DNA of 37,490 nt from Chloroflexota bacterium (lineage in GTDB: Bacteria > Chloroflexota > Dehalococcoidia > SZUA-161): contig JAJYLC010000013.1 of assembly GCA_021787935.1 (NCBI GenBank), forward strand, positions 1-37,490, read 5' to 3'. Numbering within the stretch: position 1 is the first letter of the stretch; the number at the start of each line of letters is the position of its first letter. Shown here piece after piece: positions 8,887-32,787 of this stretch. Under the pieces are notes generated by a model that searched no databases, was not told where the DNA came from, and was given only the letters and a program-made list of their open reading frames with translations. A program made the position numbers and the translations under genes.

Positions 8887-11800
8887 TTGGAGCCGGAAAA
8901 GATTGAGCGAAGCGTGAAAGCTATGGAATCAGCACTCGTGAAAACAGGTATCGATGTTATAGGCGATGTCCCCTGGGGCACTCACTTCTCCCAGTTCTAC
9001 CAGACCAAGCAGGACTTGCTTGATATTCTGATCCCTTATTTCAGGGCAGGTCTGGAGAATAACGAGTTCTGCATGTGGGTTATAGCCGAGCCTCTCGATG
9101 AAGAGGAAGCTCGGGCAGCGATAACGAAGGCGATGCCCGATTTTGCCGGGTATTTGGCCAGGGGACATATTGAGATACTGCCCCACACAGAATGGCATCT
9201 TAAGGATGGCATTTTCGATGGTCAAAGAGTACTTAATGGCTGGGTTGACAAGCTCAACCAAGCGCTTACCAGGGGCTATGCCGGCATGAGAGTGGCAGGA
9301 AATACATTCTGGCTGGAGAAGAAAGGCTGGAAGGATTTCACTGACTACGAAGCCGAGGTAAACAGCGTTATCGGCAAGTATAAAATGCTGGCGCTCTGCG
9401 CCTACTCTCTGGACAAGTGCAGTGCCTCCGAGGTCATAGATGTAATCAATAACCATCAATTCGTTCTCCTCAAGAAACAGGGCAAGTGGGAGGCCGTTGA
9501 AAACCCTGAGCGCAAGCGGGCCCGGGAGGCTCTGGAGGTTGAGCGGCAGCAATTCAACGATGTCCTAGACATGCTACCAGCATACCTCGTGCTCTTGACG
9601 CCGGATTACCATGTGCCCTTTGCCAACCGTTTCTTCCGAGAGCGCTTCGGCGAGTCTCACGGCCGGCGCTGCTTTGAGTATCTGTTTGGGCGCACTGAGC
9701 CCTGTGAAGCTTGCGAAACCTACAAAGTTCTTAAGACTATGTCGCCTCTTGAGTGGGAGTGGACCGGCCCCGACGGTCGAAATTATTTTATCTATGACTA
9801 CCCGTTCACTGACGCTAACGGCTCCACGCTTATCATGGAGGTCGGCATCGACATCACCAAGCAAAAGGAAACCCAATCGGAAATGCAGGTACGTACTGCG
9901 CAGCAGGCGGTGATAGCCCGGCTCGGACAGATGGCGCTGGCCGGCGCCGACCTCGACGAATTATTTCATGAAGCGGTGAAGCAGATCGCCCAAACCCTCA
10001 AAGTGGAATACTGCAAGGTGCTGAAACTGCTTCTCGGCGAAAAAGAGCTGCTGCTGCTCGCGGGCGTTGGTTGGAAAGAAGGACTTGTCGGCCGTGCCAC
10101 GGTAGGAGCAGGCATTGACTCGCAGGCAGGCTACACTTTGTTATCCGACAAGCCGGTAATCGTGGAAGACCTCAGGACGGAGAAAAGATTTAACGGGCCG
10201 CCTCTGCTGCATGAACACGGCGTAGTGAGCGGCATGAGCGTCATAATCCCGGGTCAGAATAAGCCTTTTGGTGTCCTGGGCGCTCACACCGCGGGATCGC
10301 GCAGGTTCACTGAGGACGACGTTCACTTTCTCCAGGCGGCCGCAAATGTGCTGGCTGGCACAATCGAGCGAAAACGAGCGGAGGAGGCGCTGCTTAAAGC
10401 GCATAATGAATTGGAGGCACGTGTTGAGGAGCGCACCAGGGAGTTGGGAGAAGCCAACAGGATACTGCAGGCCGAGATTGCGGAGCGCAAACTGGCGGGG
10501 GAGGCCTTGCTGCGAGAGAAGGACTTCAGCAATGCTGTCATAGACAACCTGCCGGGCTTCTTCTATATAGTTGACAGGAGCGGCTATTTCGTACGCTGCA
10601 ACAAGGACGCTGAGAAGGCTACAGGGTATTTGGCAGCAGAGGAATTACCGGGGATGTATTGTCTCAACATTATTGCAGAAAAGGATAGAGATTTCATTAC
10701 AGGTAAAATCGAAGAAGTTTTTACCCGGGGATATGCCACTGCTGAAGCCAATCTATTGACAAAGGGCGGGATAGAAATCCCTTACTATTTCACAGGGACG
10801 TCTGTAGCTATCGGAAATAATGCTTATCTCCTGGGTATGGGCATAAACGTTGCCGAGCGCAAGCAGGCCGAAGAAAAATTGCAGGAAACCCAGAACTATC
10901 TGAATAATCTGCTCAACTACGCCAACGCCCCTATCATAGTCTGGGACCCCTCGTTCCGCATCACGCGGTTCAATCACGCCTTCGAAAGGCTTACCGGGCT
11001 GAGCGCTGATGAGGTGATAGGCAGGCAGTTGGACATTTTATTTCCTGAGAACGAGCGGGAAGAATCGATGGGCTACATTCGCCGTGCCTTAGCCGGCGAG
11101 CGCTGGGAAGTTGTGGAGATACCGATATTGCGGAAAGACGGGACAGTGCGGACAGTACTGTGGAACTCTGCCACATTGTATGGTGAAGACGGCAAAACAG
11201 CAATAGCCACCATAGCCCAGGGCCAGGACATCACGGAGCGCAAGCAGGCCGAGGAAGAATTGCAGGAAACCCAGAACTATCTTAATAATCTGCTTAACTA
11301 CGCCAACGCCCCTATCATAGTCTGGGACCCCTCGTTCTGCATCACGCGGTTCAATCATGCCTTCGAGAGGCTTACCGAGCTAAGCGCTGATCAAGTCATA
11401 GGCAGGCAGTTGGACAGTTTATTTCCTGAGAGTGAGCGGGAAGAATCGATGGGCTACATTCGCCGTGCCTTAGCCGGCGAGCGCTGGGAGGCCGTGGAGA
11501 TACCAATCCTGAGGAAAGACGGGACAGTGCGCACTGTGCTGTGGAACTCTGCCACATTGTATGGGGCTGATGGCAAGACAGTTGCTACTATTGCCCAGGG
11601 CCAGGACATCACGGAGCGCAAACAGGCAGAGGAGGAAGTCATGAGGTTGAACCGGGCCCTGGTAGAGAGAGCTGCTGAGCTCGAAGCCGCCAACAAGGAG
11701 CTGGAGGCATTCAGCTACTCTGTTTCCCATGACCTGCGTGAGCCCCTGCGGACAATTGACGGTTTCTCGCGTATCCTGCAGAAAGATTACGCCGATAAGT

Positions 11801-12378
11801 TCGATGCCGAGGGCCAGCGGTTCATAAATATTATCCGGGGCGGCACTAACAAAATGGCCCAGCTCATCTCCGACCTCCTGGCTTTTTCGCGAATCGGCCG
11901 CAAAGAAATGCAGCTATTGGAAATCGATATGGGTGGGTTGGCGGAGGCGGTATCGGCGGAGCTTAGAAGCGCAGTCCCTGAGCGCAAGCTGAGGTTCAAT
12001 TTTAAGAGTCTGCCATCGGCACAGGGCGATCCGGCAATGATACGGCAGGTCTGGGCCAACCTGCTGTCCAATGCCATCAAGTTCACCAGGAAGAAACGGC
12101 TGGCCGTTATCGAAGTTGGCGGTCTTGCCCAGGATGGTGATAATATATACTATGTTAAAGACAACGGAGTGGGCTTCGAACCGCAGTACAAGGACAAGCT
12201 CTTCCGTATTTTCCAACGTTTACACACCGAGGAGGAATTCGAGGGCACAGGGGTTGGGCTTGCCATCATCCAGCGCATAATCCATAGGCACGGCGGGCGT
12301 GTCTGGGCTGAGAGCAGGGTCGGCCGCGGTGCTACTTTCTATTTCACTTTACCAGGAAAGGAAGGCGAAAGTTTATGA
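8887..12378 (+). CDS. MEDS-PAS-GAF multisensor histidine kinase
   Basis: A soluble-looking sensor histidine kinase of 1,163 residues with no membrane segment. Order: a MEDS domain (about 25-175; begins [13 protein letters not shown], the DcmR-type sensory fold known from methylotrophs and methanogens); a PAS-like domain (about 221-325) with Cys262, Cys273 and Cys276; a GAF domain (about 338-498); a short coiled coil; a PAS (about 548-655); two almost identical PAS units (657-783 and 784-909); a HisKA dimerisation domain with phospho-accepting His948 ([10 protein letters not shown]); and a HATPase with N-box Asn1062, the DNGVGF box near 1092 and GTGVGLAI. The start is a TTG with GGAG 11 bases upstream, so the N-terminus is less certain than the rest. 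The stop overlaps the next gene by four bases, pairing the kinase with that regulator. The ligand is unknown. Confidence 0.93.
10855..11613 (+). repeat. Tandem duplication of a PAS-domain unit
   Basis: Copy 1 spans 10855-11235 (381 bp) and copy 2 spans 11236-11613 (378 bp). They are very similar in bases as well as residues, sharing long identical runs; copy 2 lacks one codon near its end. Differences include Gly to Glu, Glu to Gln and Ile to Ser changes. The close nucleotide match indicates a recent in-frame duplication or continuing gene conversion. It keeps the downstream kinase in frame. Confidence 0.95.
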
Positions 12379-12821
12379 ATGTAGATGAGGTCGAGATTCT
12401 GCTGGTAGAGGACAGTCCCCGGGATGCCGAGCTGACCATCAGGGCGCTCAAGGAACGCAAGCTGGCTAACAAGCTGTTTCATGCCAAGGATGGAGCCGAA
12501 GCCCTGGACTTCATCTTCGGCGCCGGTAAGTTCTCCAAACGGGGAGCCGATAAACAACCGAAAGTGATCTTGCTGGATTTGAAACTGCCCAAGGTGGACG
12601 GCCTCGAAGTGCTTCGCAGGATCAAAGACGATGAAATGACCAAGATGATCCCCGTCATCGTTCTTACATCCTCTACGGAAGAGAAGGACGTAGTGACAAG
12701 CTACAAGCTCGGCGTGAACAGTTATATCACCAAGCCGGTTGATTTTGACAAGTTCGCGGACGCCGTAGCGCAATTGGGTCTGTACTGGCTGCTGCTGAAC
12801 AGGCCGCCCAGCAATCACTAA
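12375..12821 (+). CDS. Single-domain response regulator (Rcp1-like)
   Basis: A 148-residue receiver domain with no output domain. The acidic pair Glu12-Asp13 lies in [13 protein letters not shown] and the phospho-acceptor is Asp68 in [12 protein letters not shown]. The conserved Thr/Ser (VLTSS) and Lys (ITKPVD) switch residues are present. The insertion before the phosphorylation site and the DSPRDAELT start resemble the Rcp1 family of regulators that pair with phytochrome-like and multi-PAS kinases. It overlaps the kinase gene by four bases (ATGA), so translation is coupled and the two are very likely cognate. With no DNA-binding domain it probably acts as a phosphate shuttle or through protein contacts. 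Confidence 0.94.
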
Positions 12822-12873
12822 ACTCAGCTATTCAGCTATACTAAGCTATCGGTGGTGTTGCCAGGGAGGGGAA

Positions 12874-14475
12874 ATGCCATTCAGTGCCTCTGAAGACAGT
12901 GGGCTTCGCATTCTGATATTGGAAGATGTTGCTACCGATGCCGAGCTGATGGAGCGCGAGCTTCGCGACAGCGGGCTAACCTTTTCCTCTAAGCGTGTGA
13001 AGACACGAGAGGCCTTTCTCAAGCAGCTCGAGGAATTTGCGCCCTCTGTTGTCCTGGCGGATTATACCCTTCCGGGCTTCGATGGTATGTCGGCCCTCGC
13101 CATCGTACGTCAGTGGAACCCTGATATACCCTTCATCTTTGTCTCGGGCACTATCGGTGAGGAGCGTGCTGTTGAGGCCCTTAAGAAGGGTGCTACAGAT
13201 TACGTCATCAAGGATAGTCTGTCTCGGCTGGGGCCCACTGTGCATCGCGCCTTGCAGGAGGTTGAGGAGAAGATTGCACTCAAGAAGGCAGAAGTGGAGC
13301 TGACGAAGTACCGGGAGCACCTGGAGCATATTGTCGAGCTGCGGACTTCTGAATTGGAGAGGGTCAATAGAGAGCTCCAAGATGATATCGGTGAGCGCAA
13401 GAGAGCTGAGGAGGCTCTACTACGAGAAAGAAATATGTTAATGACCATGCTGGAAACGATGAAAGACGGCGTTTTCATCGTTAGCCCGCAATATGATGTT
13501 GAATATATTAATCCGGCTCTGGTGGAAGAGCTCGGCCCTCTCAAGAAAAAGAGGTGCTACGAGTACTTTCACGACAGGCAAGCCCCCTGCCCCTGGTGCA
13601 GGAATGAAGAGATTTTTGCCGGAACGACAGTTCGTTATGAGTGGACCTCCTATAAGACTAAAAAGACTTATGACCTTGTCAGCACAGTAATGCATAACCC
13701 CGACGGCACAATGTCCAAGCTGGAGATATTTCGTGATATCACCGAGCGCAAGGACCTGGAGAAACTGAAAGATGAATTCGTTGGCCTGGTCTCCCATGAG
13801 CTGCGCAGTCCCTTAACGGTAATCACCGGTGGGATATATACAGTGCTAAGCGAGTGGAAAAGGTTAACTGAACGAGACAGGCGCCAGCTTCTGCAAGATG
13901 CTGCAGTGGAAGCTGACTCGCTATCGCGCATACTGGACAACCTCCTCGACCTTTCTCGTGCTCAGGCAGGCAAATTATCGCTTTACCCGGAACCTCTGGA
14001 TATGAATAAACTGGTGCGCAATACTGCCAAAAAGATAAAGGTGATAGCGCCGGAGCATTACATTCGTGTGCATTTTCCCAAGAATCTTTCACCGGTGACA
14101 GCCGACCGGGTAAAGGTGGAGCGCATCCTGTACAATCTCATGCATAATGCGGTTAAATACTCACCAGCCAAGAGCAACGTAGAGATCTTCGCCGTGCAAG
14201 GGGAACAGTTTCTCACGGTCTGTGTTAAGGACCACGGCGCAGGGATTTCTGATGACGATCAAGCAAAGCTGTTTCAACCTTTCCAGAGGCTTGATAAGGA
14301 CGGGTCTACCAGCACTAGGGGAACGGGACTGGGTCTTCTGGTATGCCGCAGGCTGGTGGAAGTACATGGCGGCCATATCTGGGTGGAGTCAAAACTTGGT
14401 GAAGGGTCTACTTTCTTCTTTACCCTGCCTTTACAGGGTAAAGAAGAAAGTACCACGAACGATTTTCTGCGTTGA
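12874..14475 (+). CDS. Hybrid receiver-PAS-histidine kinase
   Basis: A 533-residue signalling protein that begins with a receiver domain (about 10-130; phospho-acceptor Asp63 in VLADYTLPGFDG). A coiled-coil linker ending in [10 protein letters not shown] leads to a PAS-like domain (about 190-290) holding Cys228, Cys239 and Cys242 in the pattern RCYEYFHDRQAPCPWC. A HisKA domain follows with His308 (LVSHELRSPL), then a HATPase domain (LYNLMHNAVKYS, then DHGAGIS and GTGLGL). It starts 52 bases after the single-domain regulator behind a GGGAGGGG ribosome-binding site, so it is probably in the same operon. The N-terminal receiver suggests it takes phosphate from, or is gated by, the upstream pair. 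The last codons form a long hairpin in the DNA. Confidence 0.93.
   Translation: MPFSASEDSGLRILILEDVATDAELMERELRDSGLTFSSKRVKTREAFLKQLEEFAPSVVLADYTLPGFDGMSALAIVRQWNPDIPFIFVSGTIGEERAVEALKKGATDYVIKDSLSRLGPTVHRALQEVEEKIALKKAEVELTKYREHLEHIVELRTSELERVNRELQDDIGERKRAEEALLRERNMLMTMLETMKDGVFIVSPQYDVEYINPALVEELGPLKKKRCYEYFHDRQAPCPWCRNEEIFAGTTVRYEWTSYKTKKTYDLVSTVMHNPDGTMSKLEIFRDITERKDLEKLKDEFVGLVSHELRSPLTVITGGIYTVLSEWKRLTERDRRQLLQDAAVEADSLSRILDNLLDLSRAQAGKLSLYPEPLDMNKLVRNTAKKIKVIAPEHYIRVHFPKNLSPVTADRVKVERILYNLMHNAVKYSPAKSNVEIFAVQGEQFLTVCVKDHGAGISDDDQAKLFQPFQRLDKDGSTSTRGTGLGLLVCRRLVEVHGGHIWVESKLGEGSTFFFTLPLQGKEESTTNDFLR
14409..14452 (+). repeat. Perfect 19-bp hairpin inside the 3' end of the hybrid kinase gene
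   Basis: Bases 14409-14427 are the exact reverse complement of 14434-14452, with a six-base loop (14428-14433). The stem is part of the coding sequence for the last kinase strand and the following residues, and lies 23 bases before the end of the gene. No T-run follows, so it is not a textbook intrinsic terminator in either direction. It may end or stabilise the operon message, or be a short inverted duplication. Confidence 0.85.
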
Positions 14476-23362: not shown

Positions 23363-23491
23363 TCAGCATAGCACAGAGCCCCTATAAATGTCACAAATTT
23401 TCAACTTTCTGGCGCCTGATTTAATGACTTTTTTATTGCGGTGCGCTAGCATGGAGCCGTCAGTTGAACAACTCCTTACAGGAGGCAAGAA

Positions 23492-24862
23492 ATGACCAGG
23501 GAGCGTCTTATCGTTATCGGAGGTAATGGGGCGGGGATGAGCGCCGCCAGCAGGGCCCGAAAGCTTAAGCCCGACATGGAGATACTGGCCTTTGAAAAAA
23601 GCGGGTATATATCCTACGCGGGCTGAGGGATGCCTTACCTGAGTTCAGGTAAAGTGAAATCGGCGGAGAGCCTTGTGGTCTATGATGCAAAATTCTTTAA
23701 AGAAAAAAGGAATATAGACGTATTTCTGTATCACGAGGCCACGCGAATATTACTCCAGCGGAAAGCCGTGATGATAAGGAATACAGCGACAGGCGAGGGA
23801 AAAGAGTATTCATACGACAAGTTGTTGATTGCCAGCGGAGCCAGGGCGTTTGTTCCGCCCATAAAAGGTCTGGATAGAAAGGGGGTTTTCACACTGCGTC
23901 CTCTGGAGGATGGCATAGCCATAAAAGAGTACATCGGCAGCAACTCGCCGAAGAATGGCCTCCTCATCGGCGCGGGTTACATCGGCATGGAGATGGCGGA
24001 GTCCTTCACTGAAGCGGGCATGAAGGTGACGGTCGTGGAGAAGATGCCGAGTATTGTGGGGACGATGGACGACGAAATCACTGAAATTATTGAGAAAGAG
24101 CTGAACAGCAAGGGCGTAAAGCTGCTCAAGTCCAAAGCGGTGGCGGAGTTTGCCGGTGAAGACTCTCGCTTGAACAGGGCGATCCTGGACGGCGGAGAGA
24201 TGATTGATGCCGATATCGCAGTTGTGGGCGCAGGGCTGAGGCCCAACTCGGAGATCGCCAGGGAAGCAGGCATTGAGCTGGGAAAGACTGGCGCCATAAA
24301 AGTCAACCAGCGGATGGAGACCAATATCCCCGATATTTATGCTGCAGGCGACTGCGCTGAGTCATATCATCTTGTCCTGGGCCGAAACGTATATATCCCG
24401 CTGGCCACCACGGCGAACAAACAGGGCAGGGTTGCCGGAGAAAATATTGCAGGTGGGGAAGTCTCATTTCCCGGCATTGTGGGCACAGCCATTTTCAAGG
24501 TCTTCGACCTCGAGGTAGGCAGGACAGGCATCACCGAGAAGGAAGCCAAAGTCGAGGGCATCGACTATGTATCCAACGTTATTGAACATGGTTCGAGGGC
24601 GCCTTATTACCCCGGGGTTAGTCCGATAAGGATCAAGCTGCTTGCTGACAAGAAGACGGGCAGGCTTCTGGGAGCCCAGATGGTGGGCAGAGAAGGAGTC
24701 TCCAAACGCATAGATGTTTTTGCCACTGCGCTTACGGTCAAGATGACTGCTCACGATATGAGAAACCTTGACCTGGGATATGCCCCTCCCTTCTCGCCGC
24801 CTTACGACCCGATACTCATTGCGGCAGACGAACTCCACAAGAAGCTGCAGGGTAAAGGGTAG
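23492..24862 (+). CDS. CoA-disulfide reductase-like flavoprotein with in-frame TGA, probable selenoprotein
   Basis: Read through a TGA at 23624-23626 (codon 45), this is a 456-residue FAD/NAD(P)H-dependent disulfide reductase. The N-terminal FAD fold is IVIGGNGAGMSAASRARK. The segment then reads YISYAG, TGA, GMPYLSSG. In CoA-disulfide reductases and NADH peroxidase/oxidase relatives this block is SYAxCGxPY, so the TGA falls exactly on the catalytic Cys. The rest is intact: LLIASGARAFVPP, the NAD(P)H fold LLIGAGYIGMEMAESF, YAAGDCAE, and the C-terminal dimerisation domain ending FSPPYDPILIAADELHKKL. The ATG at 23492 has a perfect AGGAGG upstream. A hairpin begins nine bases after the TGA. The best reading is selenocysteine insertion; a sequencing error or pseudogene is less likely. 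A start at 23630 would lack the FAD-binding loop. Confidence 0.85.
23635..23652 (+). promoter_or_regulatory. SECIS-like hairpin just after the TGA codon
   Basis: TTACCTG (23635-23641) pairs perfectly with CAGGTAA (23646-23652) around the loop AGTT. The loop guanine at its second position lies about 16 bases after the TGA. Known bacterial SECIS elements are stem-loops inside the coding region directly downstream of the UGA, with a G in the first two loop positions and similar spacing, so this fits, at the short end of the range. Confidence 0.7.
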
Positions 24863-25533: not shown

Positions 25534-25547
25534 GCAAACCAAGTAGC

Positions 25548-25634
25548 GACCCGGGCTATGCACGGCCCTTCGCGCCCCCTTACGACCCGGTTCTTATCGC
25601 GGCAGACGAACTACACAAGAAGCTCAGTGGTAAG
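25548..25634 (+). pseudogene. Relic of a second CoA-disulfide reductase-like 3' end
   Basis: Translation here gives PGYARPFAPPYDPVLIAADE followed by LHKKLSGK, which lines up with the last 28 or so residues of the reductase gene (ending near 24862). The two stretches are alike in bases at roughly four out of five positions. No upstream part of the gene remains and no stop directly follows. This is the remnant of a diverged paralogue, probably lost by deletion when the PlsY-like gene arrived or moved. Confidence 0.8.
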
Positions 25635-25796: not shown

Positions 25797-26669
25797 TCAA
25801 CCTGCGCCTTCGATTTGGCTCACCTTCAGGCTTCGCAAATGGCGCATGAAACGGCGGGTGCGCTTGTCCTGGCCCAGGAAAACGTCGGCGGCAAGCAGGG
25901 CGAAGCGCAACTCGGTGTAGGTGACATCAGTAATCGGTACGTTCATGCCCAGCACCGCTGCCACGGCTATGAAGCTGGCATTGAGCATGGCACGAGCCGG
26001 CATGCCGAAGCTGATGTTGCTGGCGCCGCCGGTGATGCTGTGACCAGGGAACTCTTGACGCAGCATCCGGATTGTCTCCAGGGTGACACGCGCTGCTTGG
26101 TCATCTGCGCCCACCGACATGACTATGGGGTCGAAGACTACATCCTCACTTTTCACCCTGGCCCGCACGGCTGCATCGAGTATTTGGTAAGCGACTTTCA
26201 CCCGCTCCCCGGCTGAGCCGGGAATACCTCCCGTACCTATACACAGCGCAATTACGGGCAGGCCGCGCTCCGCGACTATGGGGAGGATGCTCTCTAGCAC
26301 TGCCTTTTCCCCGCTGATGGAGTTGACCAGTGGTCGTCCAGGGGACACGGCTAACGCAGCTTCCAGTGCTGCGGGCAGACGCGTGTCGATGCAGAGGGGC
26401 ACTGGCACGGCCCCGGCAACGGCCTGCACCACCTCGGGCAGGACGGCTGCTTCGTCGATACCTGTGCCGCCAGCGTTAACGTCTATGATGTCGGCGCCCG
26501 CCTCGACCTGTCGCTGTGCTTCGGATGCGACATAGGCCCAGTCGCGGCTGTCCATCGCCTGCTGCAGCCTCTTCCTGCCGCTGGGGTTGATGCGCTCGCC
26601 TATGGTTCTTATCTGGCTCGCCGGGTCAAGGTTCAGCGGCTCGCCCTTGCCTTTAAGTAAGACGGTCAT
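25797..26669 (-). CDS. Pterin-dependent methyltransferase (methyl-corrinoid:tetrahydrofolate)
   Basis: A 290-residue dihydropteroate-synthase-like TIM barrel of the methyltetrahydrofolate methyltransferase family (AcsE/MtgA-like). Signatures are IGERINPSG near the N-terminus, GADIIDVNAGG for pterin binding, PLCIDT, NSISGE, and the late NISFGMPARAMLN. It would move a methyl group between the corrinoid protein and tetrahydrofolate. ATG at 26669 is chosen because AAAGGA lies eight bases upstream; a start at 26726 would add 19 residues that do not resemble the family. It is the last gene of the operon and lies 113 bases after the UroD-family gene. Confidence 0.88.
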   Translation of the reverse strand: MTVLLKGKGEPLNLDPASQIRTIGERINPSGRKRLQQAMDSRDWAYVASEAQRQVEAGADIIDVNAGGTGIDEAAVLPEVVQAVAGAVPVPLCIDTRLPAALEAALAVSPGRPLVNSISGEKAVLESILPIVAERGLPVIALCIGTGGIPGSAGERVKVAYQILDAAVRARVKSEDVVFDPIVMSVGADDQAARVTLETIRMLRQEFPGHSITGGASNISFGMPARAMLNASFIAVAAVLGMNVPITDVTYTELRFALLAADVFLGQDKRTRRFMRHLRSLKVSQIEGAG

Positions 26670-26782
26670 TCGGATATCCTTTCGGTTAATTAGAGAAGGT
26701 TGCGCCCTCTTCATTTCAGAACACACGCTTTCTTGCCAGAAAAAGCCTGTTCCCTGAACTTCCCATCAGTAGTAACCTGCTA

Positions 26783-28069
26783 TTATTTCTTTTCTCTGGC
26801 CTTGAATATGACGTCGGCTTCCGGTTGAGACTTCAGCCAATCGTCGAACGGCGTGAATTTGTGCGGCTCGACGGTTATCGCCGACAGGTCTTTGGCGATG
26901 GGGTAATGCCCCAGCTTATGCACTGCCTGAAGCGCCGTGTGGACGTTGACCGGAGGCGTGTCTGCCGGGACGTTGCCGATGAAGAACAGCAGCCCGCCAT
27001 CGCGTCCCATAATGTTTATCCACTCGCGTATCTTATCGACAATCTGCTGGGGCGAGCTATCGCGCACGAAGCGCCCGTTCAGCGAGGCATATATGGGCAG
27101 TTTCCGTCCCCGTTTTTTGTTCTTTACCGCAAATTCCTGCACCCACCTCATATCCCAGTCCTGTGTCCGGCCCATAACGGTCATGGTCAAATCCATAGGC
27201 ATCAGCTTGAGCGCCACAGTCAGGCACTTGAACATAATCTCTTTGTTGAACTTGGCGGGGTCTTCTTCGCAGTAATCCGCAGCGGCCGCGCCTGCCGAGA
27301 CTCTCATCTTTAGCTCTTTCTTCCCCCGCTCCTTCAATCGCAAGGCAGAAGGCACGACCCACTCATCGGTCATTTCGGGGGTCAGATTGGGGAAAGCAGC
27401 CCAGGCATCGGCGCCGATGGACTGTTTCACGCCTGCCTTGGCCTGTGCTTTGAGATAGGGGAAGATAGCCTTGTTCTCGGCGTAGTCGAACAGCTCTTTG
27501 GCAAATGCCGGGTCTTTGCGCAGCGCGCGCACCGCCTTGGGATAGCCTGTTGCCCCGCAAATGAAGCTGAAGGGAGAGCAGAAGAGGCCGTTGGCGAAAA
27601 CGCCCAGGCCCATTTCCGAGCTGAGGCGGGCAATCTCTACCCCTACGGGAATACGCCCTTTGTTAGGATCAAGCTCTCCCAGCCTGTCAAGGTCGGCACG
27701 TTCCTTGATGAGCGGCTGGTTAGTATCCACCGTGGGCATACCGTAGTCACTGTAGACCATCTTCGCTCCCAGGGCTTCGAGCTCGAAGTTATAGTTGTCT
27801 GCGGTAATCATCGGGGCATCGAAGTCGTACCAGCGTTCTACAGCTAGCTCGGTGCTTACCAGCAACGCTGCGTCGTAGTAATATTTACGCGCCGGCACCT
27901 TAGCCACAGTCATAGCGTGGTCATGGATTTGTGGTGCCAGAAAGGGGATGATATCGCCGCGTTTGCCCATCAAAGTGGCGAACACCCGCGCACCGGGGCT
28001 CAGCTTGCCCACGGGCAGGATGTTTCCGTAGATCAGTCCGCGAAGTATTTCAAACATGGGATTAGCCAT
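26783..28069 (-). CDS. UroD-family corrinoid methyltransferase
   Basis: A 428-residue protein of the uroporphyrinogen decarboxylase/MtaA-type methyltransferase superfamily. In this context it is more likely the substrate:corrinoid methyltransferase than a haem-pathway enzyme, because it lies 12 bases from the corrinoid protein gene. Visible features include YYYDAALLVSTELAVERW in the N-terminal half, FSFICGATGYPKAVRAL in the middle, and GLLFFIGNVPADTPP near the C-terminus. The zinc-binding HxC...C motif of MtaA is not obvious, so the methyl donor may not be a thiol-type substrate. The donor (methoxy-aromatic, methylamine or another compound) cannot be read from sequence. Confidence 0.82.
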   Translation of the reverse strand: MANPMFEILRGLIYGNILPVGKLSPGARVFATLMGKRGDIIPFLAPQIHDHAMTVAKVPARKYYYDAALLVSTELAVERWYDFDAPMITADNYNFELEALGAKMVYSDYGMPTVDTNQPLIKERADLDRLGELDPNKGRIPVGVEIARLSSEMGLGVFANGLFCSPFSFICGATGYPKAVRALRKDPAFAKELFDYAENKAIFPYLKAQAKAGVKQSIGADAWAAFPNLTPEMTDEWVVPSALRLKERGKKELKMRVSAGAAAADYCEEDPAKFNKEIMFKCLTVALKLMPMDLTMTVMGRTQDWDMRWVQEFAVKNKKRGRKLPIYASLNGRFVRDSSPQQIVDKIREWINIMGRDGGLLFFIGNVPADTPPVNVHTALQAVHKLGHYPIAKDLSAITVEPHKFTPFDDWLKSQPEADVIFKAREKK

Positions 28070-28081
28070 CGTTCACTCCTC

Positions 28082-28717
28082 CTACAACTTAAGCGCTTTC
28101 TGCACAGCATCCAGGGCATCTCTACCCCAGGCATCTGCACCGACCTGGTTGGCAAACTCCTGGCTGGTAGGCACGCCGCCCACCATGACCTTCAGGTTCT
28201 GGCGAAGTCCCAGTTTCTCCAGCTCGGCGATGATTCCTTTCATCTCCAACATGGTGGTGGTCATGTAGGCACCCAGGCCGATGATATCCGGCTTCTGCTG
28301 CCTCACAGTGTCGATGAACTTCTGCAACGGCACATCTATGCCCAGGTCGATGACTTCGAAACCGGCTGAAGTCAGCATGGCGATGACCAGGCTTTTGCCC
28401 AAGTCGTGAACGTCGCCCTGGACGACTCCCATCACTACTTTCTTGCCTTTTCGGGCGCCTTCCTTCCCTTCCAGGCGCGGCTTGAGGATAGCCATCGCTG
28501 CCTTGAAGGCGTCGGCTGCCATGATTACGTCAGGCAGGAAATATTCATTGGCCTTCCAGAGCTCGCCCGCTTTGCTGATGCCTGCCACTATTCCCTTCTG
28601 CATGACCTCTATTGGAGGCAGGCCATTTTTCAGCGCCTCCTCGACTCGCTTGATAGCTTCTTCCTCTTCTCCCTCCGTGACTGCTTTGCTGATAGCTTGA
28701 TAGAGTCCGTCTCCCAT
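28082..28717 (-). CDS. Corrinoid (B12-binding) methyl carrier protein
   Basis: A 211-residue corrinoid protein of the MtbC/MttC/MtaC type. The N-terminal helical cap (about 1-85) contains EYFLPDVIMAADAFKAAM. The Rossmann-like cobalamin domain starts at VVMGVVQGDVHDLGKSL with the cobalt ligand His104 in DxHxxG. The LGIDVP and MVGGVPTSQEFA segments, which line the nucleotide tail, are also present. It carries the methyl group between the two methyltransferases. It lies 39 bases after the activase gene and 12 bases before the UroD-family gene. Confidence 0.95.
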   Translation of the reverse strand: MGDGLYQAISKAVTEGEEEEAIKRVEEALKNGLPPIEVMQKGIVAGISKAGELWKANEYFLPDVIMAADAFKAAMAILKPRLEGKEGARKGKKVVMGVVQGDVHDLGKSLVIAMLTSAGFEVIDLGIDVPLQKFIDTVRQQKPDIIGLGAYMTTTMLEMKGIIAELEKLGLRQNLKVMVGGVPTSQEFANQVGADAWGRDALDAVQKALKL

Positions 28718-28756
28718 GTGATTCCCCCTTTCCCGGCATAATTATACACCTGTAGG

Positions 28757-30571
28757 TCAGCCCGCTGGCAGCCGCATACCGGCAGCAAGGTACTTTTGGA
28801 ATCCCGGATAAACAGTCACCTCTAGATATTCTACCTGCTCAGCCAGGGCAGTAGCACGTTGGCGTGCCTCCGTTGAAGCCAGCATCATACGCGCTCCCGC
28901 CCCGGCGGCGTTCCCGATGGCGCGAATACGGTTCAGGGGCACGCGCGGCAGTAAACCGATGCGGATAGCATTCCGCGGATCGAGATACGAGCCGAAGGCA
29001 CCGGCGATATTTATATCGTCGATGTCCTGCGCCTTAACGTTTAAGTGATTCATCAGTATATCTATGCCGGCGCGGATGGCCCCCTTTGCCAGCAGTATCT
29101 GGTCGATATCCTGCTGGGTAATGGTGACATCGCGCAGCCCCTCACTGCCTGCCGCCAGCAGGAATTCCGGCAATCCATCGTGCTGCAGGCGTACGCCGGG
29201 GCGTCCCTTAATTACCCGGCCGCGCTCGTTAATAATTTCGGCAGCCCGCATCTCCGCTATTGAGTCGAGAACTCCCGAACCGCAGATACCGCTGGCAGGG
29301 CCGCCCCCGATTATATCTAATTTTACCACGCCCTCGGCTGTGATAGTCACCCTTTGAATAGCCCCGGGCGCAGCCCGCATGCCGTGGGAGATATGGGCTC
29401 CTTCGAATGCCGGGCCGGACGCCGTGGAACAGGAGACGATTCTGCGTCCCACCTGGAGGGCGATCTCGGTGTTGGTCCCGATATCTATAGCAAGCCTTGT
29501 CCTATTGTCCTCGCCGAAACCAGCGGCCAGCAGGACAGCTACATGGTCTGAGCCCACAAACCCGGCAATGGGCGGAGGCAGATAAGCGTGAGCTCCTGGG
29601 GCTGCATTCAAGCCAAGCGTGGCAGCATCGACCTCCAACGGCGAGCTGGTCGCGGACACGAACGGTGATAGAGCTAAGGGACGCACCGGCAGGTTCAGCA
29701 GCAGGTGATGCATGGCTGTATTGCCTACCAGGCACAAGTCCAGCAAATGCCTTGTTTCGAGCTTGAGAGTGGCGCACAGCTCACGGGCGACGTCGTTGAC
29801 TGCCTTAACCACCACCTCCTGCATGCGGAGAGCGTTGGCCGGGTCGGCCATGGCTGCCGCCAGGCGGGCCATCACGTCCTCGCCGTAAGCTATTTGCGGG
29901 TTCATCGCACCCTGGGCAGCCAGCACTTTCCCTGTTGCCAGGTCTACGAGATAGCAGGCTAGTTTGGTGGTGCCCACGTCCACGGCCAGTCCGACAGGCG
30001 TAAGCACCGCTCCCGGATAGGCGTCGATGATTTCCTCGCCGCGCAGCCCCACACCGATGTTCCAGTCTCCTTCCCGGAGCGCTTCCCGCAGTGAGCTGAG
30101 CGCCGGCAAATCTGCCCGGGCGTTAGCGATGCCGTGCTGTTGCTGCAATGCTTCGGCGACCCGCTGCAGGTCGGCACGCTGGTCGGTGAGGGATGCTGGC
30201 GGGACGGACAGCGAGAATGTTCGTATTGAAGTTTTGGGTTTAATAGTTACAGCCAGGCTTTCGAGCTGCAGGACGGGAGCTTCAACCGTTGAAATGGCCG
30301 GGACATAGACGGAGACTTTGCCTGAGACAACCGTCCGGCAGGCCAGGCGCCAGCTTTCGGCAAGCTGGTCAGCGGAGAGGAGTTCATTTTCGGCTTCGCT
30401 GATTGAGGATACTTTGCCGCCCTGCACGCGCACCACACACTTGCCGCAGGTACCCTGGCCGCCGCACTCTGACCGTATGCTTACCCCGGCTCGCCGCGCT
30501 GCATCGAAAATAGTAATCGGCTCTTCGCAAACCAGCCGGATGCCGCTGGGCTCGAATTCAACGGTGAATAT
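28757..30571 (-). CDS. RACo-type reductive activator of corrinoid proteins, AUA start
   Basis: A 604-residue ATP-dependent activase. It has an N-terminal [2Fe-2S] ferredoxin-like domain with Cys36, Cys42, Cys45 and Cys78 (SECGGQGTCGKC), a linker domain, and an ASKHA ATPase-like domain (AVDVGTTKLACYLVD, later LAIDIGTNTEIAL and CGSGVLDSIAEM). RACo proteins reduce inactive Co(II) corrinoid to Co(I) using ATP. The reading frame runs upstream to a stop at 30611-30613 and contains no ATG, GTG or TTG before the first iron-sulfur cysteines. An AGAGGTG ribosome-binding site lies five bases before an in-frame ATA at 30569-30571, where family members have their initiator followed by a similar FTVEFEPSG segment. 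A GTG at 30434-30436 would cut off three of the four cluster ligands. Confidence 0.9.
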   Translation of the reverse strand: MFTVEFEPSGIRLVCEEPITIFDAARRAGVSIRSECGGQGTCGKCVVRVQGGKVSSISEAENELLSADQLAESWRLACRTVVSGKVSVYVPAISTVEAPVLQLESLAVTIKPKTSIRTFSLSVPPASLTDQRADLQRVAEALQQQHGIANARADLPALSSLREALREGDWNIGVGLRGEEIIDAYPGAVLTPVGLAVDVGTTKLACYLVDLATGKVLAAQGAMNPQIAYGEDVMARLAAAMADPANALRMQEVVVKAVNDVARELCATLKLETRHLLDLCLVGNTAMHHLLLNLPVRPLALSPFVSATSSPLEVDAATLGLNAAPGAHAYLPPPIAGFVGSDHVAVLLAAGFGEDNRTRLAIDIGTNTEIALQVGRRIVSCSTASGPAFEGAHISHGMRAAPGAIQRVTITAEGVVKLDIIGGGPASGICGSGVLDSIAEMRAAEIINERGRVIKGRPGVRLQHDGLPEFLLAAGSEGLRDVTITQQDIDQILLAKGAIRAGIDILMNHLNVKAQDIDDINIAGAFGSYLDPRNAIRIGLLPRVPLNRIRAIGNAAGAGARMMLASTEARQRATALAEQVEYLEVTVYPGFQKYLAAGMRLPAG

Positions 30572-30972: not shown

Positions 30973-32787
30973 ATGCGACTTTCTGCAGAATCAATGAACT
31001 TATCGTGGCCATTTTCATCCTCACAATTTTCTCGTTATAATATGAACGTCGATGCAAAATATCGCGATTCCCTTGCTGGACAATGTGTGCAGCGACTAAG
31101 AAAAAGGATAAAATTCATGCCAACCCATGAAGAAAGAACTTGGTTGATGGGCCTCTTCTCGCCTCCGCCAGACGGGACGCCTGAACGAGAATCATTTAAC
31201 CAGTGGAAAGCTAAGATGGATAAGGATCCATCTTTCCAAGCGGAATTAAAAAGAATGTTCAGAACGGCGGTGGCAATTATATCTGCCCAAAATGATAATG
31301 GGGCTGGTTTACCACTCGACTCACAAATCCGAGAGTTCGCGCTTGAGTATAATGGAAGGAGTTTCCAATATGGGCGACAATCACTGCCCTCGTCTTTTAA
31401 TGTTGTTGAGGCTTTCCTTGAATACGACCATCGATATGCATTATTCAGAATAAGAGAGGAAAAGGATCATCTATGCTCATTTCCAGAATTTCTTGAATAC
31501 GTAACATCGGCGGATTGCGATAATAATGTTAAATCTATAGTCAATCATACACAAGACGGTGTGATTTATTCTTATAATTTTACAAATAGACTTGGGGAGT
31601 TCACTTTTAATGATAACGAAGGAAAAGAGTATGGGCTTAGTGGTTTCAGTATAATTCGGCATGAAAATGAGCTTAACATTATGGCCGTCGTTGGTGAATT
31701 GACGAATTTGGAGCAGGAAACTCAAAAGATTAAGGAAATGGCTTCGATGGGCGGCACGTTTTTTCGGGGCAGGGAACAGCTTCGTCCTGCCAAGGATAAG
31801 AAGCCTAGAGCAGAACCAGTTCCATGGAACGGAAATTTCTGGAGGCTTCTGGTTTTAGCTCGCTTAGACTTGGATCGAATTACCTATGACGCAAGGTATC
31901 TTCTTCAGGATTGTGGCGATAGATATATAGTGGAATCTGATGATTTATCACTTCTCGTTGATGAACGCGGTCAGATAATAGAGAACTTTGAAGAAGTCTT
32001 AAAGCAAAGCGCTTCGAAGATCGAGTCCCATAGGGCCATTTTTGAAGTCTGTAGCACTATGCTTTTGCTTCCTCAATACTTTTTCCATTATGCTGATCTA
32101 GTTGTTTGCGAACATCATCCAACAAAACTGCTGAGCAGGCGGGAAACTAAAACCTCTCGGAAGGCTAATAGATTGCTAAGTGCGAGGGAAAGAATTAAGT
32201 ACCGCGTAGTCTCTGTTTTAAACAGAAGTATCACAAGGACTCCTGAATATACAACATACAAAGCGCCTAACGTGAAATTAGAAGTATCTGGTTTCTGGCA
32301 ACCACTACCATCAGACCACATGGGTACTGATAAGCAAGGCAGACCCATACATGGAAAGACATGGGTAGAGAAGACTTTGACCTGGGTAGATTCTGGTGAA
32401 TACGAAAGTAGTATTCAGGTCGCTAATCACAATACTGGGAGAAACGTAAATTCAACAATTAAAAGGCCACAAGTAAACTCGCCTAACTTCGGCTACATAT
32501 ATGTGATGCGCTCGGCTGCCCATGAACGGGATATATTCAAAATCGGACGGACCGTTAGGGCTCCCGATACTCGTGCTGATGAACTTTCGAGGGAGACGGG
32601 TACTCCCGATAAATTCCTGGTGGTGGAGGATTTTGCGGTGTCGGACTGTGTAGTAGCTGAATCTATGATACATGAACGTCTCGCTCAATTCCGTATTAAC
32701 CCTGACAGGGAATTCTTCAAAGCTCCGTATAAGGTTATACGGCAAGTTGTTGACCAAGTAATACGAGAGGTTGACCAAGTGTATTAA
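30973..32787 (+). CDS. Unknown protein with C-terminal T5orf172 GIY-YIG domain
   Basis: A 604-residue protein. The C-terminal 100 residues match the T5orf172 group of the GIY-YIG nuclease-like superfamily: GYIYVMRSA (507-515), IFKIGRT with Arg526, then ELSRETGTP, AESMIHERL with a conserved Glu, and DREFF. The large N-terminal part (1-500) matches nothing I know; it is mixed alpha-beta and has no membrane segment. T5orf172 domains occur in phage and mobile-element proteins and may bind or cut nucleic acid. Codon use is AT-rich compared with neighbours, suggesting transfer. The start is uncertain: ATGs at 30973, 30994 and 31042 are all possible and none has a good ribosome-binding site. Confidence 0.65.
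   Translation: MRLSAESMNLSWPFSSSQFSRYNMNVDAKYRDSLAGQCVQRLRKRIKFMPTHEERTWLMGLFSPPPDGTPERESFNQWKAKMDKDPSFQAELKRMFRTAVAIISAQNDNGAGLPLDSQIREFALEYNGRSFQYGRQSLPSSFNVVEAFLEYDHRYALFRIREEKDHLCSFPEFLEYVTSADCDNNVKSIVNHTQDGVIYSYNFTNRLGEFTFNDNEGKEYGLSGFSIIRHENELNIMAVVGELTNLEQETQKIKEMASMGGTFFRGREQLRPAKDKKPRAEPVPWNGNFWRLLVLARLDLDRITYDARYLLQDCGDRYIVESDDLSLLVDERGQIIENFEEVLKQSASKIESHRAIFEVCSTMLLLPQYFFHYADLVVCEHHPTKLLSRRETKTSRKANRLLSARERIKYRVVSVLNRSITRTPEYTTYKAPNVKLEVSGFWQPLPSDHMGTDKQGRPIHGKTWVEKTLTWVDSGEYESSIQVANHNTGRNVNSTIKRPQVNSPNFGYIYVMRSAAHERDIFKIGRTVRAPDTRADELSRETGTPDKFLVVEDFAVSDCVVAESMIHERLAQFRINPDREFFKAPYKVIRQVVDQVIREVDQVY

Follow-up and report, generated by a model that had tools for sequence, protein, structure and literature searches.

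The window, the whole 37,490-nucleotide stretch of DNA analyzed here, belongs, as contig C43, to a 2.68 Mb draft genome in 169 contigs (completeness 100, contamination 4.95%); in a draft this fragmented and with this contamination, single contigs could be foreign. The frame at 23492–24862 on the forward strand contains a single internal stop, the TGA at 23624–23626 (codon 45), and ends at a terminal TAG (24860–24862), so that it runs unbroken across the TGA, as the initial annotation had described. In the read-through product, codon 45 lies in the context SYAGUGMPY, with UGMP at residues 45–48. The perfect Shine-Dalgarno site claimed for the ATG at 23492 is indeed present, as is a stem-loop beginning nine bases past the TGA, with its two strands at 23635–23641 and 23646–23652. 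The gene and its local elements are as follows.

23480–23485, forward strand: Shine-Dalgarno sequence AGGAGG, 6 bases upstream of the ATG at 23492, read directly
23492–24862, forward strand: gene for a highly probable 456-residue FAD/NAD(P)-dependent CoA-disulfide reductase-like selenoprotein with Sec45 (read-through translation, TIGR03385, PDB matches, and model)
23624–23626, forward strand: TGA, the proposed Sec codon, aligned with the catalytic Cys (codon alignment of 110 relatives: 107 Cys, 3 TGA)
23635–23652, forward strand: putative bacterial SECIS hairpin with a 7-bp stem and the loop AGUU (23642–23645), 15 bases from TGA to loop
23642–23644, forward strand: codon 51, which forms part of the apical loop and reads AGT (Ser) here but ATC (Ile) in the sister gene; 110 of 110 relatives have I/V/L/A
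25545–25634, forward strand: 3'-end relic of a second reductase copy, about 30 codons (80% amino acid match to residues 426–455)

The relic lies directly after a plsY-like gene. Its DNA matches the 3' end of the gene of a same-genus sister at 82 of 90 positions, versus 73 of 87 for the intact copy in the window, and it is perhaps what remains of a Cys copy, judging by this similarity. The presence of such a relic indicates that the locus has been rearranged. Further along, on the reverse strand (25797–30436), genes for pterin-binding, URO-D, corrinoid-binding, and RACo proteins stand in a row, an arrangement suggestive of a methyltransferase system together with its reductive activator. Elsewhere in the window, a 1163-residue MEDS/GAF/PAS histidine kinase, a response regulator, and a second hybrid kinase directly follow rpoB-rpoC (8887–14475, forward strand), and a protein of 604 residues (30973–32787, forward strand), whose C-terminal part is a T5orf172 domain and whose N-terminal part matches no assigned domain, has a weak PADLOC candidate match to PDC-S57.

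The read-through product is a CoA-disulfide reductase-like flavoenzyme

The best NCBIfam match of the read-through product is TIGR03385 (E = 2.8e-141, residues 5–445). With Cys substituted for Sec, the score of 471.3 bits does not reach the strict equivalog cut-off of 578.8 bits, and we therefore use the name “CoA-disulfide reductase-like.” The Pyr_redox_2 and Pyr_redox_dim domains are complete and the predicted structure is confident over its full length (pLDDT 92.2), which agrees with the earlier claim that both Rossmann folds are intact; residue 45 starts a helix spanning residues 44–50. The nearest solved structures are the CoA disulfide reductases PDB 3kd9 and 4fx9, which we take to be from Pyrococcus horikoshii and which match over the full length (E ~ 1e-106). 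The alternative of a water-forming NADH oxidase fits less well than a CoA-disulfide reductase, with 266.6 bits for NF046103 versus 471.3 bits for TIGR03385. By similarity, CoA disulfide is the best-supported candidate substrate, at a score below the strict family cut-off. A literature search for the active-site residues of CoA-disulfide reductases returned nothing.

Two homologous flavoenzymes encoded in the same genome (L024 and L025) are about 38% identical to the window protein. They have an active-site Cys, and their C-terminal ends are extended by about 100 residues that look rhodanese-like by eye, whereas the window protein has no such extension. A plasmid search gave only distant homologues, with less than 60% identity.

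Codon 45 corresponds to the catalytic cysteine

Aligned relatives from many phyla carry TGC or TGT at codon 45 in 107 of 110 cases and TGA in the remaining three. The alignment to Cys-containing homologues that the initial annotation had proposed, including PDB 3kd9 and 4fx9, places codon 45 at the catalytic position and confirms that the TGA stands where homologues have the redox-active Cys. Other internal stops across the alignments are confined to one TAA at position 35 of L118 and to the C-terminal end. The argument that a random stop would be unlikely to fall on this codon also holds up in numbers: the sister gene allows 131 single-base nonsense changes, and only one of these yields TGA at codon 45.

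The three TGA-bearing relatives are L074, from a Desulfatitalea MAG, L103, from the Chloroflexi MAG KW1-S08_30, and L149, from the window's own class. The genes at L103:604 (forward strand) and L149:1889 (reverse strand) belong to Chloroflexota and to the same family, are 61% identical to each other, and have TGA at the same codon. Both have a perfect 8-bp hairpin with a 3-base loop beginning with G, 18 bases past the TGA, and we regard them as a separate Sec lineage. The gene at L074:4121 (forward strand) likewise carries TGA at codon 45; its hairpin is bulged and has the loop GGC. Its nearest relative, L114, has Cys at this codon. We also considered recoding of TAG in three relatives from the class and, as far as the alignments show, rejected it: the one TAG that lay within an alignment, that of L130, is a terminal codon, and the other two genes showed no internal stop there.

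A SECIS-like hairpin follows the TGA

The hairpin UUACCUG-AGUU-CAGGUAA (23635–23652) has G at the second loop position, followed by U. The published bSECIS model (PMC13188914) describes a loop of 3–9 nt, a stem of 4–16 bp, a G at loop position 1 or 2, a distance of 16–37 nt from the UGA, and an MFE ≤ −7.5. With a loop of 4, a stem of 7, G in second place, and an MFE of −10.7 (over 45 nt), the hairpin is within the model on these points; its spacing is borderline, since 15 bases separate the UGA from the loop, which begins at the 16th, one short of 16–37 by that count. Within the same genome, the spacing is 16 for SelD and 18 for formate dehydrogenase (Fdh), and the perfect-helix energies are −7.3 kcal/mol for the window hairpin, −5.6 for SelD, and −5.8 and −11.7 for Fdh.

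Only 0.5% of synonymous recodings are as stable as the window hairpin. By the perfect-helix rule, hairpins of equal stability occur in 8 of the 107 Cys relatives, and shuffled versions of the 63-base segment fold as well as the segment itself (z −0.82). We therefore rejected the hairpin alone as proof of Sec. The check for a bacterial SECIS suggested in the initial annotation has thus turned up a SECIS-like hairpin near the model spacing, which is not decisive by itself; it is compatible with a SECIS role, and should be taken as fitting, not as proof. A search with the eukaryotic SECIS model RF00031 gave no match anywhere, and it is uninformative, as the controls were likewise unmatched.

The genome encodes the selenocysteine machinery

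The initial annotation had called for a search for selA, selB, selC, and selD in the same genome, and all four are present, including selB and selC, whose joint absence it had named as refuting. selA adjoins selB on contig C5, tRNA-Sec (anticodon tca (UCA), 72.3 bits) is on contig C152, and selD (392 bits) is on contig C91. SelD itself has an in-frame TGA, in HGAGUACKIGPGDL, and a single TGA follows DHCARL in each of two formate dehydrogenase alpha subunits, which shows that Sec is in use elsewhere in the window's genome. The same-genus genome G001 has a selB match above the cut-off and, judged by selB, the sister species would be a Sec decoder itself.

Comparison with the Cys-containing sister gene

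The sister gene from the same genus has TGC at codon 45 and aligns to the window gene without gaps, with 83% identity in both DNA and protein. The nearest named relative is the Dehalococcoidia MAG B_CHL_03 (L040); L040 and L120 of G001 seem to be one and the same contig. Between window and sister, dN/dS is 0.20 before the TGA and 0.15 after it, and there is no frameshift; the value of about 0.15 downstream implies that the gene is not visibly decaying.

From codon 45 to the end of the hairpin (base 30), the two genes differ at five bases: one makes TGA of TGC, one lies in codon 47, two lie in codon 51 (AGT in the window, ATC in the sister), and one lies in codon 53 (GGT and GAT, respectively). 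The three differences in codons 51 and 53 fall in the hairpin, where codon 51 contributes the GU of the loop and codon 53 the G needed for a complete stem. The folding energy is −7.4 for the window hairpin versus −1.6 for the sister, whose loop, AUCU, has no SECIS-type G. Residue 51 is Ser in the window only. With Ile or Val at this position in the nearest outgroups, the Ser is derived; Gly53 is common among the relatives, so the Asp of the sister may be the derived residue and the stem may be older. One reading, formed after seeing the data, is that a conserved aliphatic residue at position 51 was given up for an RNA loop.

A quick tree of 106 proteins, built under a simple model and not including WP_011365774.1, pairs the window protein with its Cys sister, followed by L121 (Cys) and then by Kryptonia and Methanoperedens (Cys). 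On this tree, at least three separate changes to Sec are required to account for the four TGA genes. Grouping of the four Sec sequences in a single clade was rejected (p-AU 2e-62, for the quick tree and simple model). The simplest and most likely reading of the tree is that the window gene would have gained Sec in place of Cys recently, after the split from its sister.

Discussion

The locus combines an in-frame TGA where homologues have Cys, conservation on both flanks, and selA, selB, selC, and selD in the genome, all marks of a bacterial selenoprotein. The catalytic-Cys alignment, the machinery, and the SECIS-like hairpin uphold the earlier proposal of a likely selenoprotein. We consider it highly probable that 23492–24862 encodes a single flavin disulfide-reductase selenoprotein, in which UGA 45 is read as Sec; the change most likely came after the split from the sister. 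The frame, the codon position, the machinery, the hairpin, the constraint, and the tree are observed; what we infer is that Sec is inserted and that the hairpin acts as a SECIS, along with the substrate and the redox mechanism. In the mechanism we propose, SelB and tRNA-Sec would decode UGA codon 45 as selenocysteine, aided by the hairpin at 23635–23652, and the product would be an FAD- and NAD(P)H-binding enzyme. Beside the flavin, the selenolate of Sec45 would replace the single redox Cys of CoA-disulfide reductases and pair with a small thiol such as CoA in a mixed selenosulfide. NAD(P)H would reduce FAD, which would then reduce the selenosulfide. The replacement of Cys by Sec would have occurred in this lineage, later than its split from the same-genus sister.

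A sequencing or assembly error, or a nonsense mutation recent enough to have left a young pseudogene, could also have produced a TGA in a Cys gene: the sister's TGC is one base away from TGA, and a very young mutation leaves no decay, so that dN/dS is blind to it. Such an accident would, however, have had to strike the one change in 131 that yields TGA at codon 45, and it would coincide with an ATC-to-AGT change at codon 51 that puts GU into the loop and a Ser found in none of the 110 relatives into the protein. Given also that the genome decodes Sec and has other TGA genes, and that three other genes of the family have TGA at the same codon, we regard an error or young pseudogene as very unlikely. 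Harder still to credit is a true stop at the TGA with a restart at the ATG at 23630, which would make a 44-residue peptide and a 410-residue protein. That ATG does lie 3 bases past the TGA, and ORF finders report 23630–24862 (410 residues), but the site has no well-spaced Shine-Dalgarno sequence, a protein begun there would have neither the FAD-binding beta-alpha-beta nor the catalytic residue, constraint extends over both flanks of the TGA, and the relatives have a single uninterrupted protein.

The direction of the change is a separate matter, as the gene could be a selenoprotein whose Sec is ancestral in the genus, with the TGC of the sister being a reversion to Cys. Two species of the genus are known here, which makes the direction depend on the outgroups, and the stem region of the sister is similar but mismatched. 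Against this stand the next relatives, L121, Kryptonia, and Methanoperedens, which are all Cys, and the sister loop AUCU, presumably the ancestral Ile codon, with no SECIS-type G; moreover, published Sec-to-Cys changes are few and mostly concern FdhA and SelD (PMC1794560). An ancestral Sec is, in our view, unlikely, though less so than the two explanations above. On the preferred reading, a gain of Sec after the split, the switch probably took place within one genus and needed the change from TGC to TGA, the two-base change in codon 51, and at most one further stem base.

Standard annotation would yield the fragment that starts at 23630, without the FAD end or the probable Sec; residues 1–46 would be lost, and with them the FAD-binding beta-alpha-beta, the end that the initial annotation had warned would be missed. 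The pair is also an unusually clean case, as two congeners, both with selB, have on the one side Cys without a hairpin and on the other TGA with a hairpin. With these two natural sequences, the needs and the protein cost of a new selenoprotein become directly testable.

Compared with the Pyrococcus horikoshii-type enzymes PDB 3kd9 and 4fx9, the window protein keeps the YYPG and YAPPF motifs, and its SYAGUGMPY aligns to SHAPCGIPY; the solved enzymes have Cys where the window protein would have Sec. A Sec-containing “FAD-dependent oxidoreductase (CoA-disulfide reductase)” with the motif UGxP has already been listed, an example being the CoA-disulfide reductase/NADH oxidase WP_011365774.1 (PMC13188914, PMC9312934), and a member from Geobacter metallireducens was counted as “NADH oxidase” in PMC1794560. 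Such proteins are rare: PMC1794560 has 1 among 285 selenoproteins, and the GOS survey (PMC2398784) has 1 among 3,506. The window product, a TIGR03385-type flavoenzyme with its predicted Sec in UGxP, matches this published type, which has Sec at the same position. The published examples that we found are deltaproteobacterial or come from marine reads, whereas the window protein is from Dehalococcoidia, sits on its own branch of the tree, and has a Cys congener. The Sec form of the family is thus a rare one that has been described before; the distinctive feature here is the Cys counterpart within the same genus.
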